IMG/VR virus record: IMGVR_UViG_3300047510_001668
Coordinates: 113,879 to 177,878 of that record
Strand: one strand, 5' to 3'
Length of the DNA stretch: 64,000 nucleotides
Origin: a virus
Shown here: positions 4,581 through 48,236 of the stretch, in pieces
Layout of the letters: every line of letters begins with the position of its first letter
Position numbering within the stretch: position 1 is the first letter of the stretch
The notes under the pieces: model-generated
The model's database searches: none
The model's input: the letters and a program-made list of their open reading frames with translations, nothing else
Told to the model about the DNA's origin: nothing
Position numbers and translations under genes: made by a program

Positions 4581-6436
4581 GACACTTCACAACCATTGGC
4601 TGAACAGGCAGCTTCACCTTGAAGGTTGGTTTCATCATTCATTTCTCGCACATCATCCAGATTGATGTTGTGTAGTGTCTTGACAGCTTCTTCATAGGTC
4701 ACGGCATCAACATCTTCAAATGGTGCTTGGATGTAGGTGTGGTCGCTGTAAGGCAACACGGACAATGCTGTGAAGTTGTCACGATTCTCCCACATCCAGG
4801 CTCCCACTTCATCCCACTCACCTGGCTTGATGGTGACTGTGGTGGATACATTGTTCTTGTTGGCACCCTTACGATGTCCAGGCTTCACCCATTCCTTCCA
4901 CACCTTTGATACGCGCTTCAATAAATCAAGTGCTGTTTCTTGACGAGTGACAGCTCCTGCAGGTGCCTGTTGTGGCACTTCAATCACAGCCTGAATGTTT
5001 GGCTTGAAATATTCATCCGTGACCAGTTCAGGATGATTGTTCACCAGATAGTTGTAGATGCTTTCATTCTTACCCACACGAATTCTACGAATGTAGAAAT
5101 CATTGTGCCAGGCGTGAATGCCTGAGGAGGTTCCCAACACCAATGAACTGGTGCCTTCAGGCTTCACTGTGGTGCAACGTGCTGCTGGGTTCGTACCAAT
5201 TAAAGCTGCTACACGTTGATTCTCTTCCTTCACCAGGTTGGCTGCTTCCTTCATGTCCAATTTCAATACGCCACCCGATGCAATCCCCGTCATTGAAACG
5301 CCAATCAAGGCTTCCTTCTCCGTGGTTCTCTTCCATACATCCCTCAAATAATGAAAGTTGGTGTAACTGGCTTGTAGTGTGCCAATGAATGCTGCCGCCT
5401 TGGCACGTGCATTTAAATCTTCTTGTGATTCCACATCACCCGCATGAATGGTGGTCAAGTTACAGAATTGGAAGGGACGAAGTGAAATTTCTGCACAAGG
5501 ATTCATGCCCCAATCCTTATCATTGGTGAAGAAGAAGCCAGGTTCACCTGAGCCTGAAGCCTCAATCTTCTTCCACAACTCCATGAATGTTTCTTCTTCC
5601 ACCTTGGACCGAACAATCACGGCTGAGTTGTTGGCACGACCACGTTGTGAATTTTGTTCCCACCAGTTGCCGAACTTACAGGTCAGCATGTCATCATCAT
5701 CAATGTCAAACAATGAAATCATGGCTGACCGACGAATGCCACCTGCCAACACAGCATCAGCAATGTAGCACAGAATGTCATGCACTTCCAAAGAGGTGAG
5801 TTGTTCACCATTGTGCTTTCTGTCCAGAATCTTCTGAACATTGTGGAGGCAATCCTTCAATGGTTCAGGACCAGGTGCCTTGCCACCTGATGTGATGAGA
5901 GGCGCACCCTTCTCACGAACATCAGAGAAATCATACACAGGCATGGCCTTGCCCTTCATGTATGCAGTCATCAACACCTTGACAGCATCTGCCCATCCTT
6001 CAATGCTATCTCCTACAAGATAGCGACGATTCTTCACAGGCTTGTTGATTTCAGGAAGTTTTTCCACGTGATGTTGTTGCACAGAATATCCCACACCTGT
6101 ACCTGACAACAACAGGAACATTACTTCACTGAAGGCATCCACGTGATCCACAGGTAGGAAACAACAATTATACAAACGAGCATTGTTGATGGCAATAGGC
6201 TTCCCAGCAAACTGCAAACTGCGCATGGAAGGGAGAATCTTCTTGTCATAGACAAATTGATAGGCATCAGTGATGTCTTGTGCCAGATGAGGATACTTCT
6301 CCAGATGCATCTGCTTGTTTCTGTCAACTAGTTCCTTCCAGTTTTCACGACGACCAAGCTCAGGGATGAACTTGGCATATTTCATGAACACGGTGATGTC
6401 ACTTAAAATCTTGGCGGGCAATTCCATCTTACTCAT
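4577..6436 (-). CDS. nrdJ: Adenosylcobalamin-dependent ribonucleotide reductase (class II, NrdJ)
   Basis: The 619-residue enzyme reduces ribonucleotides to deoxyribonucleotides. The diagnostic segment NPCAEISLRPFQFC (residues 312-325) contains the radical Cys314 and Glu316, plus Cys325 spaced exactly as the active-site pair of monomeric B12-dependent reductases. The N-terminal partner cysteine is in YNCCFLP (91-92). The C-terminus carries a CSANGC redox pair for re-reduction. No NrdB or NrdD/G gene is adjacent, which fits a class II enzyme needing only cobalamin. It is shorter than the 740-residue Lactobacillus enzyme. Its start overlaps the MazG-like gene and its stop overlaps thioredoxin, giving a nucleotide-metabolism run of ThyX, MazG-like, NrdJ and Trx. 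Confidence 0.95.
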   Translation of the reverse strand: MSKMELPAKILSDITVFMKYAKFIPELGRRENWKELVDRNKQMHLEKYPHLAQDITDAYQFVYDKKILPSMRSLQFAGKPIAINNARLYNCCFLPVDHVDAFSEVMFLLLSGTGVGYSVQQHHVEKLPEINKPVKNRRYLVGDSIEGWADAVKVLMTAYMKGKAMPVYDFSDVREKGAPLITSGGKAPGPEPLKDCLHNVQKILDRKHNGEQLTSLEVHDILCYIADAVLAGGIRRSAMISLFDIDDDDMLTCKFGNWWEQNSQRGRANNSAVIVRSKVEEETFMELWKKIEASGSGEPGFFFTNDKDWGMNPCAEISLRPFQFCNLTTIHAGDVESQEDLNARAKAAAFIGTLQASYTNFHYLRDVWKRTTEKEALIGVSMTGIASGGVLKLDMKEAANLVKEENQRVAALIGTNPAARCTTVKPEGTSSLVLGTSSGIHAWHNDFYIRRIRVGKNESIYNYLVNNHPELVTDEYFKPNIQAVIEVPQQAPAGAVTRQETALDLLKRVSKVWKEWVKPGHRKGANKNNVSTTVTIKPGEWDEVGAWMWENRDNFTALSVLPYSDHTYIQAPFEDVDAVTYEEAVKTLHNINLDDVREMNDETNLQGEAACSANGCEVS

Positions 6437-11858: not shown

Positions 11859-13379
11859 TTAGCAGTTCCATTTTCTGAGAGCTTTATTGATACGAGAGTT
11901 CGGGTCATTAGCGGTCTTGGCTGAAGTCAACCGCTTCTTCATCCCTCCCATTCTGGCACAGAAACTCTTTCTCCGTTTGGCGGCTTTGCTTCCCTTCTTC
12001 AATTTGGAAGGCTTGGTGGTCACAGCCATGGACAACTTGCTACCAGGGTTGGCACGACGATAGGAGGCGATACCTTTTCTGTTCAATCCACCTTCTGGGT
12101 CCTTGCCTTCCTTTCTTTGCCAAGCTGGTGCGGCTTCATCCAAAGACAATTCTTCATCTGACAAATCCACCAAGGCTTGACGTAGTTTTTCAATCATGCC
12201 TGAGTTACGAACCACTTTGAACACCATGTTCTGCAATCCAAATTCACCTGTGGATGATAATCCTGACTTACGCATTCCTGCAATCTTTTCCAACACCAAT
12301 TTAATCATGTCCACGTTCTTACCGGCAATGGCTTCTTGTGCTTCTTTGATGAGACTATCAGCCATGTCACCAATTTCTTTGTGTTCAAATGAAGGGGCTG
12401 ACATTCTGGGTTCCACCAACCAGCTGTTGGATTGCAAACTGTATTGTCCTGTTGCCACAAGGTGTTCATTGCTGCCTTGTGCATACACTTCCACAGGATA
12501 TCCCTTGATGCGAATGTTATGGCGACGATTGAATTCATCCTTCTTGGCACGAAGCAACTTTTCCACCAGGGTGACATCATGGTATCCGCCAAGACGAACT
12601 ATCACGTGCAGGTCGAAATCACTGAACTTGGTCCAGTTGTAGTTGGCGTTGGATCCTGTCAAGATGATGTCTGTGACTTCCAGATCCACACCCCAAGTTT
12701 CCATGAAAGACCTGGCCACCTTCAACAAGGCTTCACGAACATCAGGCTTCAACACCATGCCATCCCAAGCGGCGGGATTCAATTCAGCATGATAGATGAC
12801 CGTTTCCTGTTCAATGTTCATGAATTCTTTCAAGGTGGCCATCTTCTTCTTCAACACAGGAATGTCGGCATTTTCCTGGCCTGGGGTCACTGCCAACATC
12901 TTCTTGGTGAGTTCTGGACTGCCCCATTCATTGTCTTTACCTAGTTCTTCATTTGTTGAGCGCCAACCGCCGCCTTTGCCGCGATACCACTTGGCAGCCC
13001 AGCCATTGGCATAGGCACTGGGGTACACATCAAACTTGGAGCGAGCCAATGCTTTTGCTCGAGCCCAAAGTTTGGGGTTGGTGGGCTTGTTCTTTTCTTG
13101 TAGGATTTCTTCTTTCATAGTTTTCACCATGATGGGTTTGTTGCCTTGACCAGGCTGGTCTTTACCAGGACGACCTGCTGCAGCTTGTGCAGCACGCTTT
13201 CTTCTCACGGCAGATTTGATTTCATCTTTGCTCATGCTAGCTGCTTTAGCAGCAGGCACACACTTGGCATATCCTTTCTTCTTGCCTGAAGTGCCACAGG
13301 GCTCATAACTGCCATCTTTTTTCTTCTTGGCGATGTTCACCCATTTTTCTCGGAACCAGTTACGTAAATCTTCATTCAT
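11859..13379 (-). CDS. Multidomain virion protein with nucleotidyltransferase-like core
   Basis: A 506-residue composite. Residues 1-50 contain WFREKWVNI...PCG...KCVPAAKA, and residues 98-140 contain KLWARAKALARSKFDVYPSAYANGWAAKWY; both match the DUF5872-type segments of phage virion proteins. Residues 240-300 resemble a polymerase-beta-like nucleotidyltransferase: GS at 242-243, an SDFDLH DxD pair at 254/256, and an acidic strand PVEVYA with Glu297. The C-terminal ~80 residues (ASYRRANPGSKLSMAV ... DPNSRINKALRKWNC) match another short virion-associated domain (DUF6321-like). All domain names are from memory of motifs. The protein is highly basic at both ends, consistent with packaging or ejection with DNA. 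It could transfer a nucleotide to host RNA or protein; the substrate is unknown. Confidence 0.75.
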   Translation of the reverse strand: MNEDLRNWFREKWVNIAKKKKDGSYEPCGTSGKKKGYAKCVPAAKAASMSKDEIKSAVRRKRAAQAAAGRPGKDQPGQGNKPIMVKTMKEEILQEKNKPTNPKLWARAKALARSKFDVYPSAYANGWAAKWYRGKGGGWRSTNEELGKDNEWGSPELTKKMLAVTPGQENADIPVLKKKMATLKEFMNIEQETVIYHAELNPAAWDGMVLKPDVREALLKVARSFMETWGVDLEVTDIILTGSNANYNWTKFSDFDLHVIVRLGGYHDVTLVEKLLRAKKDEFNRRHNIRIKGYPVEVYAQGSNEHLVATGQYSLQSNSWLVEPRMSAPSFEHKEIGDMADSLIKEAQEAIAGKNVDMIKLVLEKIAGMRKSGLSSTGEFGLQNMVFKVVRNSGMIEKLRQALVDLSDEELSLDEAAPAWQRKEGKDPEGGLNRKGIASYRRANPGSKLSMAVTTKPSKLKKGSKAAKRRKSFCARMGGMKKRLTSAKTANDPNSRINKALRKWNC

Positions 13380-13705
13380 CAGTAGGTTCTCTTGGATTGA
13401 GGAAGTTCTTTACGAATCAATGATTTCTTATATATCTTGGCACGTTGCTTAACTAAACGTTCCACAGCAGACTTCTGCGTGTTGGATAATGAGGATTTAC
13501 GTTTCACACCCACCAACTTATACACTTTTCGAAGTGCTTCTTTGTTTAAACGTTTTTGAAAACGCTTGGCACTGGCATTGATTTTTGCTGTAATCTTTTT
13601 TCTACGTTCCAATTTCCAACGATACTTTTTCATGGTACGTTGTTTCTTGAACCGCCCTTGTGGTGTCAATGCTTCCACCACCAGAAATTCTTTTAGTGTA
13701 ATCAC
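13379..13705 (-). CDS. Small very basic protein, likely virion-associated
   Basis: The 108-residue protein starts MITLKEFLVVEALTPQGRFKKQR, an amphipathic segment followed by almost continuous basic residues (RRKKITAKINASAKRFQKRLNK). Such proteins in T4-like phages are packaged in the capsid and may enter the host with DNA. It overlaps the upstream spanin-like gene by 4 nt and adjoins the nucleotidyltransferase-like gene, so the three are probably co-expressed late. Nothing in the sequence shows a specific activity. Confidence 0.75.
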   Translation of the reverse strand: MITLKEFLVVEALTPQGRFKKQRTMKKYRWKLERRKKITAKINASAKRFQKRLNKEALRKVYKLVGVKRKSSLSNTQKSAVERLVKQRAKIYKKSLIRKELPQSKRTY

Positions 13706-14316: not shown

Positions 14317-14324
14317 TATTTATT
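14317..14324 (-). promoter_or_regulatory. T4-type late promoter box (AATAAATA)
   Basis: AATAAATA on the minus strand overlaps the endolysin stop codon and lies 19 nt before the spanin-like start. Its position and downstream AGGAG site support use. Confidence 0.6.
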
Positions 14325-14922
14325 ACTTGAACAGAGCGTAGAATTCGTTGAAATGCTTGATACGGTCAACAAGACCGATGGTGCCACCGTTCACCTTCTT
14401 GGTGATGGCAGTGATATCAAGTTCAGTGGCACCCTTGTCAGCAAGAGCATTCAAGCCACGTGAGTTCCAGAACCAGGCGGCTGAAAGAAGAGGATACTTT
14501 GTGGCAACTAGGTCAGGTGTTTCAAGAATGTTTTCTGGAACAACCTTATCAAATGCACCATAGTTGTCCTTGCCAGTCAATTGGATATAGCCACGACCAC
14601 GATACTTGTATCCTTCACCTGAAGCTTCTGGACCGTTGCCCATACGACCGCCGTAAATCAAGTTGGCAATTTTTTCTGGCTTCCGTTCGTATTCCAAAGC
14701 CTTGGCTTCTGTTGGGAAATACTTCTTGAACAATCCTAACAAGCCCTTGGCGCCGTAGTTAAGGTTTTCATTCACAGCCTTGAAGTTGCCTGATTCATGA
14801 CCGCATTGTGCAAGAAAATGGCAAAGGCGAAGAGGGGTGTTGATTTGAAACTTTTCCATCACTTCAGGAATTTGTGTGATTACTGTGTCAGGAACATGTC
14901 CCTTGAGCTTTTGAATATCCAT
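14323..14922 (-). CDS. Endolysin, glycoside hydrolase family 19
   Basis: The 199-residue protein has the GH19 chitinase/lysozyme features: FLAQCGHESGNF with catalytic Glu43, then GEGYKYRGRGYIQLTGKDNY near residues 101-120, and an aromatic WFWNSRGLNALADKG segment. GH19 phage endolysins cleave the peptidoglycan glycan strand between MurNAc and GlcNAc. It lacks a signal peptide, so access to the wall needs a holin or similar protein; no certain holin is seen in the window. The spanin-like gene follows at once. T4's own e lysozyme is of a different family. Confidence 0.93.
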   Translation of the reverse strand: MDIQKLKGHVPDTVITQIPEVMEKFQINTPLRLCHFLAQCGHESGNFKAVNENLNYGAKGLLGLFKKYFPTEAKALEYERKPEKIANLIYGGRMGNGPEASGEGYKYRGRGYIQLTGKDNYGAFDKVVPENILETPDLVATKYPLLSAAWFWNSRGLNALADKGATELDITAITKKVNGGTIGLVDRIKHFNEFYALFK

Positions 14923-14941: not shown

Positions 14942-16339
14942 TTATCGTGTTTCACGCCATTGAGCAGAGGCGTATACGTTGGTATCAGCAGTGCTGCTAA
15001 GATTTCTTGCAATTAAGGCGAATATATTACTATCAGTAGATCCAATGTTCTGACTGAGATAGGCACGTTTGGCTTTTACTGGGTCAGCCAAATCCATGCC
15101 TCCTGATGCTTGTTTACCTGATGGGTTGTTGGCTGCCACAAACCCAGACGTAAACAATTCACCGCCTGTGGTGCTGAATGCTGTGCCTACTGTGGTGTTG
15201 TATTCAACAACTGAATCATTATTGGCACTGACCCATGTACCGCCTGTGATATTGGCGCTGGCACTAGGTAGACGCCATAGTTCAAAAACTATGGATGAGC
15301 CATCAGATAGTATATTCAAGTCGGTCAAACGAACAACACTTCTGTTGGGTAGTGATTGATAGGTGTTTTTCAACTTGATGGCAACTATACACTTGGCTGT
15401 GGCAGGTGCTCCTTTACTCAGTAATATATTTTCAGCATAACTACTGAAGTTCACACCTGATTCCACATATCCACCTTCAGACATCACCGTGGAACAGATT
15501 TGATCCATGTAGGTGCTGCCTACTGCCACACCTGTGTTTCTGATTTCACAACGAATGGGGATATTGGGATTTCTCCAGTACACCGTGGCGAGATTGTTAC
15601 TGTGTTCAAATTCATGAGCCACAATGAATTCACCATCATGTACAAATCCTATGCGAAGGCGACCCACACCCAACCATTGATAATCACAAAAGACCAACTG
15701 TGTCTTGGTGACATCAATATTGAATTCTGATGCTCCGGTACCATCACATTTGTCAACATTCCATGCAGATTGTGGGATGGGTGTTTCATCAACCACACTA
15801 CCACTGATGCTGGTGCGCTTCACAAATTGAAGTGTGCCATTACCTGCTTGTTGGAAATACACGCCATCTTCTTCACCAAATAGTCCCACACGCTTCACTG
15901 TGTTGGTGCGAGCTACACCGAACACAAAACTCATCAATGCCAATTGGCTCTTGCCTGGCATATAATGATGATGCATTCTGCTTTGATGAACAACATAATC
16001 GCCATTGCCTGTGCCTACTGATAAGCGAACTGAGGCTTCATTGGCACGAAGTGTTTTAGTTCCTGACCCACTGGACGAAGTTAACAGTTCAACTTCTTCA
16101 CCATAGATATGACTGTAATCAGCAAGTGTAAAGGGTTCAGAAACACGAAGGCGACCGAACGCATCCAGGTTCGTGCCGCCGAGACTGACTAATAAAGAAT
16201 TGTTACTGCCATAACCGCCTGTGACAGGAAGAGGATTGGTAGCCTCAACAACGCTACCATCCTTGCCTGCTGCAAGCATCACAACTTCATACCGTTGTTC
16301 TCCATCTTGTACATCTTGTGGCTTGATGTATTGTGCCAT
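14942..16339 (-). CDS. Virion structural protein
   Basis: The 465-residue protein starts MAQYIKPQDVQDGEQRYEVVMLAAGKDGSVVE and contains LDAFGRLRVSEPFTLADYSHIYG near residues 59-81, a signature I associate with structural proteins of environmental T4-like phages. The remainder is beta-rich with SxxTGTxTLRANEASVRL and many aromatic positions, consistent with a baseplate or fibre-associated protein. Its ATG overlaps the stop of the adjacent two-enzyme fusion protein (shared base at 16339). Precise virion location is unknown. Confidence 0.75.
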   Translation of the reverse strand: MAQYIKPQDVQDGEQRYEVVMLAAGKDGSVVEATNPLPVTGGYGSNNSLLVSLGGTNLDAFGRLRVSEPFTLADYSHIYGEEVELLTSSSGSGTKTLRANEASVRLSVGTGNGDYVVHQSRMHHHYMPGKSQLALMSFVFGVARTNTVKRVGLFGEEDGVYFQQAGNGTLQFVKRTSISGSVVDETPIPQSAWNVDKCDGTGASEFNIDVTKTQLVFCDYQWLGVGRLRIGFVHDGEFIVAHEFEHSNNLATVYWRNPNIPIRCEIRNTGVAVGSTYMDQICSTVMSEGGYVESGVNFSSYAENILLSKGAPATAKCIVAIKLKNTYQSLPNRSVVRLTDLNILSDGSSIVFELWRLPSASANITGGTWVSANNDSVVEYNTTVGTAFSTTGGELFTSGFVAANNPSGKQASGGMDLADPVKAKRAYLSQNIGSTDSNIFALIARNLSSTADTNVYASAQWRETR

Positions 16340-18120
16340 TATTCCATTCCTTGTATTACTGCATTGAAAAGCGCTCGTGCGTCTACATCACGCATGGTGC
16401 TAGGTAATCCTTTTTTGAAATTCCTGTAATCATTTTTCATGGCAAAATCACGCATTTTGCTTGCTGACATGCCAGCGGCACCATCAGCATCAGGATCACG
16501 CTCACCTGCAGAAACCACTTCAACTGCTTTAAACGTATACAATGTTCCATTATATTTATGTACTGCTTGTTCATATTCAGGTACACGGTCACTACCTGCC
16601 ACCATGATAACCTTGTCATACATGCCATTCCATCCTTCCATCCATTTCAAAAAACTGAATTTCTCTTTGGTGGCCAACACAATGCTCACGTTGGGAAACA
16701 TCTTGTTGGCAAACATCAGCTTCATGTCTGGGTCCAAAGGATCTTTGGGAGCCTTCTGTGTGCGAGACAGAATGATGAGATAGTCTGCCTTTTTGTTCTT
16801 GGCCACACTTACCACTTTGTCAATCAGTTTTTTATGCCCGATGGTGGGAGGATTCATACGACCAAAAGCAAATACTATAGTTTTCAGTTCCTCATCCAAC
16901 TGGGTGGGTCCTACTGGTGTCCTGCTCCAATCTTTCACAGCATTGAAGTTGGCTTGTGAGAACTCCATTCTGTTCACCAACTTCACTGCATTTCCTGCTC
17001 GGTCTACTGCCACATAGCCTTCAGGGTCCGTGTGCTTGAATCCTTCAGGTGTTTCAATGAATGTAGGGATGCCTTGTGCCTCATTCAACTTCTTCACAAA
17101 GATGTTTTTTGCATCCAACAACGTCACATACAACTTGAACATGGCACGAAGATTCATGGCGTTGGTACGAAGATACTTCTGTAATTCTTTTTTCAACCCT
17201 TGATACTTCTTTTGACCAGCCGCGGTTTTCATCCCTGCTTCCTTCTTGGCAACACGGTCTATCACAAAGGCTTCCAACCCAGCAAGGGAGCGCTCGTTGA
17301 TGGGAGCGCCATCCCGCACCAGTTTGTTCACAAAAATCTTGAACATGTATCCCACGGTCAAATCAGATGTTTGTGTTGCCAACTCATCTAGAAACTTTCT
17401 CGCAGAAATGGCGTTGGTTTTGGCAGAAGCTACAAGTGAACTAACCGTTCTGGTTTCCTGGTCAGTCAACGTCATCTTTCCAGACATGTCCTGATAGGAC
17501 GCATCCTGGATCCAGGCTGTTTTAGATTTTAGCTTACTGACATCAACACCAAAAGAAGCCGACATTTCATTCACCGCCTTCTTTCCTGTATATTTAGTAT
17601 GGAACACAATTCCAAGATGGGAATGCTGTAGCTTTTCTCCCAAAGGATCCGTGACAGGCACGGCATACATGATGGTATTGGGCTTGAAAGTGATGTATTT
17701 CACCCCTTCAATCGTGGTAGTTTTCTTGATGGCAGGGGTGAACATCACATCTCCCTGCAACACATCTTTGAATGGCAAATCGCGCAATTCACGAAACACC
17801 ACTTTCAACACTTCAGCTGGACCACCACCATAATAGTAGTCTATCATCTCCTCAGAGAATCCCAGCTTCATGTCTTTGGCAAAGGCACCATGTTTCGTGG
17901 CCACGAAGAACATCCCGGTTTCCGGGTCTTTGCCACACACCACAGCAGGGGCACCATCCCACTTCACGGTGATGTTCAGCTTTCTGTTCACATTGCCTTG
18001 GAACAAGTCAAAAAGCGCCTCAACAAACGCTATGGATTGTTGGGCGCCTTTATAACCTAGATTGATGATGTCATCTTCTAGATGTTCCAGATGTGTGTTT
18101 TTGTCGCTTTTAGCGGCCAT
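16339..18120 (-). CDS. Fusion of ligase-like domain (DUF6267-type) and NMNAT-like cytidylyltransferase
   Basis: The 593-residue protein has two enzyme-like parts. Residues 45-75 contain TVKWDGAPAVVCGKD, with Lys53-Trp-Asp-Gly, the KxDG motif of ATP/NAD-dependent nucleic-acid ligases and capping enzymes. FVATKHGAFAKD and LQGDVMFTP follow. I associate this region with DUF6267. Residues 415-560 contain a nucleotidylyltransferase core: FGRMNPPTIGHKKL (GxxxPxxxGH, residues 420-429), VAGSDRVPEYE, and a late SASKMRDFA matching the family's ISSTxxR-type motif. This fold includes NMN adenylyltransferases and cytidylyltransferases. A late box (CATAAATA) lies 25 nt upstream, so the protein is made with virion components and may be packaged. 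The combined activity is unknown. Confidence 0.8.
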   Translation of the reverse strand: MAAKSDKNTHLEHLEDDIINLGYKGAQQSIAFVEALFDLFQGNVNRKLNITVKWDGAPAVVCGKDPETGMFFVATKHGAFAKDMKLGFSEEMIDYYYGGGPAEVLKVVFRELRDLPFKDVLQGDVMFTPAIKKTTTIEGVKYITFKPNTIMYAVPVTDPLGEKLQHSHLGIVFHTKYTGKKAVNEMSASFGVDVSKLKSKTAWIQDASYQDMSGKMTLTDQETRTVSSLVASAKTNAISARKFLDELATQTSDLTVGYMFKIFVNKLVRDGAPINERSLAGLEAFVIDRVAKKEAGMKTAAGQKKYQGLKKELQKYLRTNAMNLRAMFKLYVTLLDAKNIFVKKLNEAQGIPTFIETPEGFKHTDPEGYVAVDRAGNAVKLVNRMEFSQANFNAVKDWSRTPVGPTQLDEELKTIVFAFGRMNPPTIGHKKLIDKVVSVAKNKKADYLIILSRTQKAPKDPLDPDMKLMFANKMFPNVSIVLATKEKFSFLKWMEGWNGMYDKVIMVAGSDRVPEYEQAVHKYNGTLYTFKAVEVVSAGERDPDADGAAGMSASKMRDFAMKNDYRNFKKGLPSTMRDVDARALFNAVIQGME

Positions 18121-18144: not shown

Positions 18145-18152
18145 TATTTATG
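18145..18152 (-). promoter_or_regulatory. T4-type late promoter box (CATAAATA)
   Basis: CATAAATA on the minus strand, 25 nt before the ligase/NMNAT-like gene and between genes. Confidence 0.65.
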
Positions 18153-48228: not shown

Positions 48229-48236
48229 TATTTATA
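48229..48236 (-). promoter_or_regulatory. T4-type late promoter box (TATAAATA)
   Basis: Perfect TATAAATA on the minus strand in the gap after gp23, 82 nt before the gp19-like gene. Confidence 0.7.

Follow-up and report, generated by a model that had tools for sequence, protein, structure and literature searches.

The window analysed here is a 64,000-nucleotide stretch of viral DNA (positions 113879-177878 of the 177.9-kb IMG/VR record IMGVR_UViG_3300047510_001668), in which T4-type DNA polymerase, helicase and head genes are present. It also contains an open reading frame (ORF; 16339..18120, minus strand, ATG start, 593 amino acids) that fuses a DUF6267 domain to an adenylyltransferase; with its Pfam and PHROG matches and its AlphaFold2 model (pLDDT 89.3), this ORF is a real, conserved, two-domain protein. 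Pfam and PHROGs assign DUF6267 no function, and our literature search found no paper naming it. The structural models and the conserved motifs make a solid case for a divergent family whose fold and catalytic motifs are those of the covalent nucleotidyltransferase (ligase) superfamily. On balance, we lean toward reading the whole protein as a divergent RNA or nick ligase coupled to a dinucleotide-making adenylyltransferase, which would serve as a late repair and cofactor kit in the infected cell. Both folds, the conservation of the motifs, the linkage of the two genes and the lack of any other recognised ligase in 11 genomes of the cyanophage family were computed directly.

The DUF6267 domain spans residues 8-396 (16933..18099; all features within this gene lie on the minus strand), matches PF19782 with an E of 5e-103 and is assigned by PHROGs to phrog_455 (unknown function). 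Deep alignments were made from IMG/VR relatives, among them one with 86 diverse sequences (A5); a further alignment (A9) has 15 diverse rows and includes the cyanophage versions. Invariant in the 86 sequences are H10, H13, E15, G22, K53, D55, G56, P58, G63, P66, F71-V73, K76, Q122, D124, N148, T149, Y152, G170, H174, G179, N265, K338, E367, G368, V370, K380, R384, F387 and N391. The KWDG motif that an earlier note on this DNA had ascribed to covalent nucleotidyl ligases, K53-W-D-G56 (17953..17964), is thereby conserved far beyond chance; its K, D and G are also invariant in A9, as is the nearby P58, and as motif I, at the end of strand E49-53, it provides the candidate nucleotidylated lysine. 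The lysine past motif I, K76 (17893..17895), is invariant in both alignments and may correspond to K117/K119 of T4 Rnl1, judging from order and spacing in an Rnl1 profile (A6). The motif III equivalent, Q122-G-D124 (17749..17757; strand E120-127), has Asp in place of Glu, and its Q and D are invariant in A5 and A9. In motif IV, E367-G-Y-V370 (17011..17022; strand E368-372), the E, G and V exceed 90% conservation in A9, which includes one truncated row. The invariant K380 of motif V (16981..16983) follows E367 at a spacing of 13 residues, equal to that of E227-K240 in T4 Rnl1 (A6). Lys53, Asp124, Glu367-Gly368 and Lys380 follow one another as motifs I, III, IV and V do in ligases. Between motifs IIIa and IV, the AlphaFold2 secondary structure shows a helical insertion (about residues 220-348; 17077..17463), which is far shorter in some cyanophage versions, as seen from the gaps in A9. 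The cyanophage versions, with identities down to 26%, keep the KxDG, QxD, EG and K even without most of this helical segment; those of S-CREM2 gp87 read KIDG, QGD and EGFV...KLVDR.

Since the second half filled the list of the whole-protein fold search, the first half was folded by itself (AlphaFold2, pLDDT 88.8, pTM 0.81). The best 50 VIA-align rows of the 998 chains re-aligned to this model are all RNA or DNA ligases. Nick-sealing RNA ligases rank first, with Naegleria RNL at the top (Z 8.9, rmsd 3.5 A, 179 residues); further Z-scores are 8.1 for TbREL1, 7.9 for Trl1, 7.7 for T4 Rnl2, 7.4 for T4 Rnl1 and 6.7 for human LIG1, the DNA ligases scoring 6.7 and below. The ranges aligned with Rnl2 end at residues 386-390 of the model and 231-234 of Rnl2, and by arithmetic K380 is then at most one residue away from Rnl2 K225, provided that the alignment is gapless thereafter; this K225 is invariant in the Rnl2 alignment (A7). 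We assign DUF6267 to the ligase superfamily because all of the VIA-align rows shown are ligases, the motifs follow the order I-III-IV-V, and the motif IV glutamate and motif V lysine are 13 residues apart, as in Rnl1. The earlier note had named a Lys53 outside any nucleotide pocket as grounds for refutation; the model, as judged without atom coordinates, gives no such grounds, and Lys53 occupies the motif I position at a strand end.

DUF6267 shares with Naegleria RNL, Trypanosoma REL1 and T4 Rnl2 the adenylation-domain fold (Z 7.7-8.9), the lysine of K-x-D/H-G, the acid of motif III, the E-G of motif IV, the lysine of motif V and an N-terminal segment that aligns from residue 7. It differs from these nick-sealing RNA ligases in the Asp of motif III, the single motif V lysine, the helical insertion of about 130 residues, and the lack of both a C-terminal domain and detectable sequence-profile similarity. 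T4 RNA ligase 1 (Rnl1, gp63) resembles DUF6267 in its fold (Z 7.4), the EGYV form of motif IV and the 13-residue spacing to the motif V lysine. In contrast, profile similarity and the Rnl1 C-terminal domain are missing, and K240-x-K242 of Rnl1 corresponds to K380-x-V382 here.

The second half (residues 413-593; 16342..16884) follows a flexible linker (residues 388-408; 16897..16959; pLDDT below 50) and is a PPAT/NMNAT-like nucleotidylyltransferase domain, with VIA-align Z-scores of 14.5 for PPAT and 12.9 for archaeal NMNAT. PHROGs places it in phrog_3041/395, cytidyltransferase (phrog_3041, E 7e-58); the cytidylyltransferase-like match in Pfam is sub-threshold, and the match to TIGR00125 lies below the curated cut-off. 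In the second-half alignment (A8), the G and H of T426-I-G-H429 (16834..16845) are invariant and the T is conserved at >90%, while in the ISSTxxR-like motif M551-S-A-S-K-M-R557 (16450..16470), S552 is invariant and R557 is conserved at >90%. The HxGH motif position may hold either H or T in the nucleotidylyltransferase superfamily. The Rossmann-like fold (Z 14.5), together with the (H/T)xGH and ISSTxxR motifs, identifies this half as a HIGH-type nucleotidylyltransferase. The HxGH class proposed by the earlier note is thus upheld in its fold, although the motif itself reads TxGH, and the VIA-align results support the folds that the note predicted for both halves. While the fold and the two motifs resemble those of PPAT (CoaD) and archaeal NMNAT (NadM), the identity to these enzymes is just 12-15%, and a conserved SAGERDPDA stretch is peculiar to the phage family. 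Cyanophage homologues of this adenylyltransferase have been called NMNAT-like in print (PMC10665884, PMC9602691). A NARP2-type pair for the salvage of nicotinamide adenine dinucleotide (NAD) was considered and rejected, as NAMPT (PF04095) is absent from the 178-kb record, which is possibly a fragment.

The two halves are linked well beyond the window. We compared 47 distinct DUF6267 loci that have 4 kb or more of downstream sequence: the adenylyltransferase is fused in 5, lies downstream on the same strand in 33 and is not seen downstream in 9, so that it is fused or downstream in 38/47. In most cases the downstream gene is no more than 3 kb away, and several pairs overlap or nearly abut; in other phages the distance reaches 7 kb. 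A very distant DUF6267 group (L055-L059) is among the nine loci without a downstream partner. Upstream of the DUF6267 gene in one of this group, L056, however, lies an ORF (5306-5929) of the same superfamily as the adenylyltransferase, a GAFKPPHKGH nucleotidylyltransferase with the N-terminus MKTFKQFLLEA, and the pairing is kept there with another subfamily and in another order. The recurring order in cyanophages is gp41, (mazG,) DUF6267 (T4-GC71) and cytidylyltransferase (T4-GC190). T4-GC71, T4-GC190 and the fused protein of phage S-PM2 are direct homologues of the window fusion, in the same order after gp41; unlike the window fusion, T4-GC71 and T4-GC190 are mostly two genes. The clade of the window and S-PM2 both have fusions, which fall at two positions of a quick tree and may nonetheless share a single origin. 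T4-GC15, the other core virion protein of S-SM1, was ruled out as a DUF6267 protein, since the annotation shows that DUF6267 is T4-GC71.

The earlier note had placed the gene under a late promoter. A promoter-like CATAAATA (18145..18152, minus strand) is indeed present upstream, but it is weaker than claimed, with one mismatch relative to the T4 late promoter TATAAATA. The latter is found ahead of head and tail genes in the window; exact sites at 48236, 49636, 51044, 58268, 62862 (-) lie 45 to 89 bases 5' of genes of late type, head and tail genes included, and are good evidence for T4-type late promoters in this phage. The downstream gene (14942..16339, minus strand) encodes a virion structural protein (phrog_1645, E 6e-105), and its TAATG stop-start overlap with the fusion ORF suggests late co-expression. 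Late expression of the fusion gene is thus likely, as predicted from the near-consensus CATAAATA and the TAATG coupling. A GH19-type endolysin gene (14323-14922, minus strand) belongs to the same late gene run.

Packaging of the fusion in the virion, which the earlier note had considered, is not supported. Many stand-alone DUF6267 and adenylyltransferase proteins resemble T4 internal proteins with their capsid targeting sequences (CTS) at the N-terminus, where a hydrophobic stretch is combined with L/I-x-E (MKFTEYLTEA, MKKFSAFLNEA, MRFRQFIIEA). The existence and role of such a sequence in T4 internal proteins have been described (PMC3012670). The CTS-like pattern fits 48/87 stand-alone DUF6267 proteins and 46/705 background ORFs, as compared to 0/14 fused proteins; it was composed after the sequences had been inspected, and the p-value of 4e-27 is therefore not an a priori test. 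The window fusion starts MAAKSDKNTHLEH and has no N-terminal capsid targeting sequence with a gp21-type site, so that its injection with the DNA is unsupported. The adenylyltransferases reported in virions, namely S-SM1 T4-GC190 (PMC3037559), S-SZBM1_140 (PMC9146016) and S-CREM2 ORF154 (PMC10665884), all begin with a CTS-like sequence, and the homologue S-SCSM1 ORF91 is also a virion protein (PMC9602691). Conversely, the DUF6267 proteins S-SZBM1_141 and S-CREM2 gp87, which have no CTS-like start, do not appear in either of the two published lists of virion proteins that we checked (PMC9146016, PMC10665884). It is thus the separate cytidylyltransferase, rather than a DUF6267 protein without CTS, that is found in virions; a CTS-like N-terminus is common among T4-GC190 proteins, in contrast to the window fusion. 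Elsewhere in the window, a 108-aa lysine-rich protein (13379-13705, minus strand), with a start, VITLKEFLVVEALT, resembling a capsid targeting sequence, is a candidate internal head protein.

How might the fusion protein act? In the reaction that we propose, DUF6267 would probably adenylylate itself on Lys53 with ATP. Within the infected cell, the adenylylated domain would then seal RNA breaks or nicked nucleic acid, with RNA as the presumed substrate over DNA. The fused PPAT/NMNAT-type half would join AMP to a phosphorylated small molecule, for which nicotinamide mononucleotide (NMN) is the most likely candidate, giving NAD. The two halves may cooperate, and the fusion, a nearby Pol-beta nucleotidyltransferase and, in related phages, adjacent kinases could form a late-expressed repair and cofactor-supply kit. 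In the RNA repair systems of phages, RNA ligases have such nucleotidyltransferases and kinases as companions (PMC7824862). Since DUF6267 is tied to an NMNAT-like enzyme that is packaged in virions, nucleic-acid repair may be connected with NAD or coenzyme A (CoA) chemistry at infection. Because DUF6267 has a ligase fold with the catalytic residues kept, its function is directly testable.

DUF6267 is present in at least 450 sequenced phages and at least 595 places in IMG/VR. We profile-searched 12 phages, namely T4 and 11 Kyanoviridae (10 cyanophages and the Methylophilales phage Melnitz-3). All of the 11 Kyanoviridae records encode DUF6267 and none matches PF01068, PF09414, PF09511 or PF01653; T4 encodes PF01068, PF09414 and PF09511, and lacks DUF6267. 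Most marine T4-like viruses carry DUF6267, which may be their long-missing ligase. A cellular origin of DUF6267 was considered and rejected: the 38 GTDB contigs with the domain (L224-L261), which bear bacterial or archaeal labels from many phyla, are nearly all from metagenome bins and are probably binned phage contigs.

Several results weigh against our reading. The Z of 8.9, which would be weak by itself, is near the usual best score of models without a clear match, and in a Foldseek search of the DUF6267 model against the PDB, the top match, T4 Rnl2, was not significant (E 0.24). Neither phmmer nor profile searches of the PDB found a sequence match for this half, and hhalign against Rnl1 and Rnl2 profiles built for the comparison gave probabilities of 0.8% and 0.2%, that is, no link. 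One of the 86 members touches PF09511 (E 0.017), which we do not count as evidence. The two-lysine form of motif V (KxK) was not found, as the second position is V/I382 in A5 and A9 (V382 here). Moreover, the domain ends just past motif V and continues into the linker and the adenylyltransferase, with neither an OB-fold nor a helical domain at its C-terminus. Against NMN specificity of the second half stand the best-matching structures, which are PPATs, and the lack of any NCBIfam equivalog that reaches its cut-off. Kinase, phosphatase and Pol-beta neighbours occur in a minority of the loci only. Finally, the genome of the window encodes one conventional PF01068 DNA ligase besides DUF6267, with no match to PF09414, PF09511 or PF01653.

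This last result bears on the idea that the missing replicative ligase of T4-like cyanophages, the DNA ligase that seals Okazaki fragments, is DUF6267; in the phage of the window it would be a second ligase. A 2010 review reports that cyanomyoviruses lack the g30 ligase, leaves room for distant unrecognised homologues and notes that the host LigA could do the job (PMC2984593). The DUF6267 ligase fold offers an answer to the question, posed there, of how T4-like cyanophages live without a ligase gene. The distribution among the Kyanoviridae (11/11 with DUF6267, 0/11 with any of the four ligase families) fits a replicative role, as does the position of DUF6267 beside the gp41 helicase, UvsX and DNA polymerase genes, with a helicase family member at most five genes away in 62/98 loci. 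However, RNA ligases outscore DNA ligases in the VIA-align comparison, an OB domain is missing, and the CTS-like N-termini of stand-alone DUF6267 proteins are ill-suited to a replication enzyme. We therefore consider a replicative role improbable, and favour RNA or specialised repair because the genome of the window also encodes a PF01068 DNA ligase.

The ligase fold could also have been recruited to another reaction, such as the nucleotidylation of small molecules or proteins, or to a structural or regulatory role, without joining nucleic acid ends. The missing second lysine of motif V and C-terminal domain, the additional residues that are invariant but belong to none of the ligase motifs (H10, H13, E15, H174 and N265) and the CTS-like N-termini of the stand-alone forms would suit such a protein. 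We regard it as unlikely, since K53-x-D-G, D124, E367-G and K380 are fully kept across great divergence, which at the least argues for nucleotidyl-lysine chemistry. A self-recharging enzyme, in which DUF6267 spends NAD or another dinucleotide and frees NMN, from which the fused NMNAT rebuilds NAD, in marine T4-like phages that mostly have no other ligase, would account for the two folds in one chain and the near-constant linkage of the two genes. The Foldseek matches include adenylation domains of LigA, without significance. However, the closest structural matches are ATP-dependent RNA ligases, the N-terminal helix shows no LigA domain Ia signature (judged by eye, without a profile), and the linkage is looser elsewhere, at up to 7 kb or, in the nine loci mentioned above, without a downstream partner. 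This cycle is accordingly highly improbable, and the favoured reading remains a divergent RNA or nick ligase with a coupled adenylyltransferase.

A few genes downstream of the fusion, the window encodes a 506-aa protein (11859-13379, minus strand) in which a Pol-beta-type nucleotidyltransferase domain (PF01909, GSNANYNWTKFSDFDLH) is flanked by DUF5872 and DUF6321 segments, and homologues of it occur in the fused-gene clade (L008, L018 and L023). A regular expression for the Pol-beta site was too strict (0/47 loci); the profile used in its stead places such a nucleotidyltransferase near DUF6267 in 14 loci. P-loop kinases adjoin DUF6267 in some related phages. Small P-loop kinase genes directly follow it at L080 2954-3538, L119 6064-6648 and L141 3489-4070, with CTS-like N-termini (MKTFRDFIFEK, MKSFKYFIEA); that of L080, the one scanned of the three, is an adenylate kinase (PF00406, E 1e-38). 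The adenylyltransferase domain also occurs in large mosaic proteins, the longest of 1622 aa, where it is combined with RimK ATP-grasp, PAP2 phosphatase, zeta-toxin-like kinase or DUF5824 domains (L026 6123-9509, L072 5537-8671, L070 9210-12035, L108 10922-15787 and L123 9189-11927). Some of these proteins, for example those of L108 and L123, have CTS-like N-termini, and the mosaic proteins are possibly a modular set of injected enzymes.

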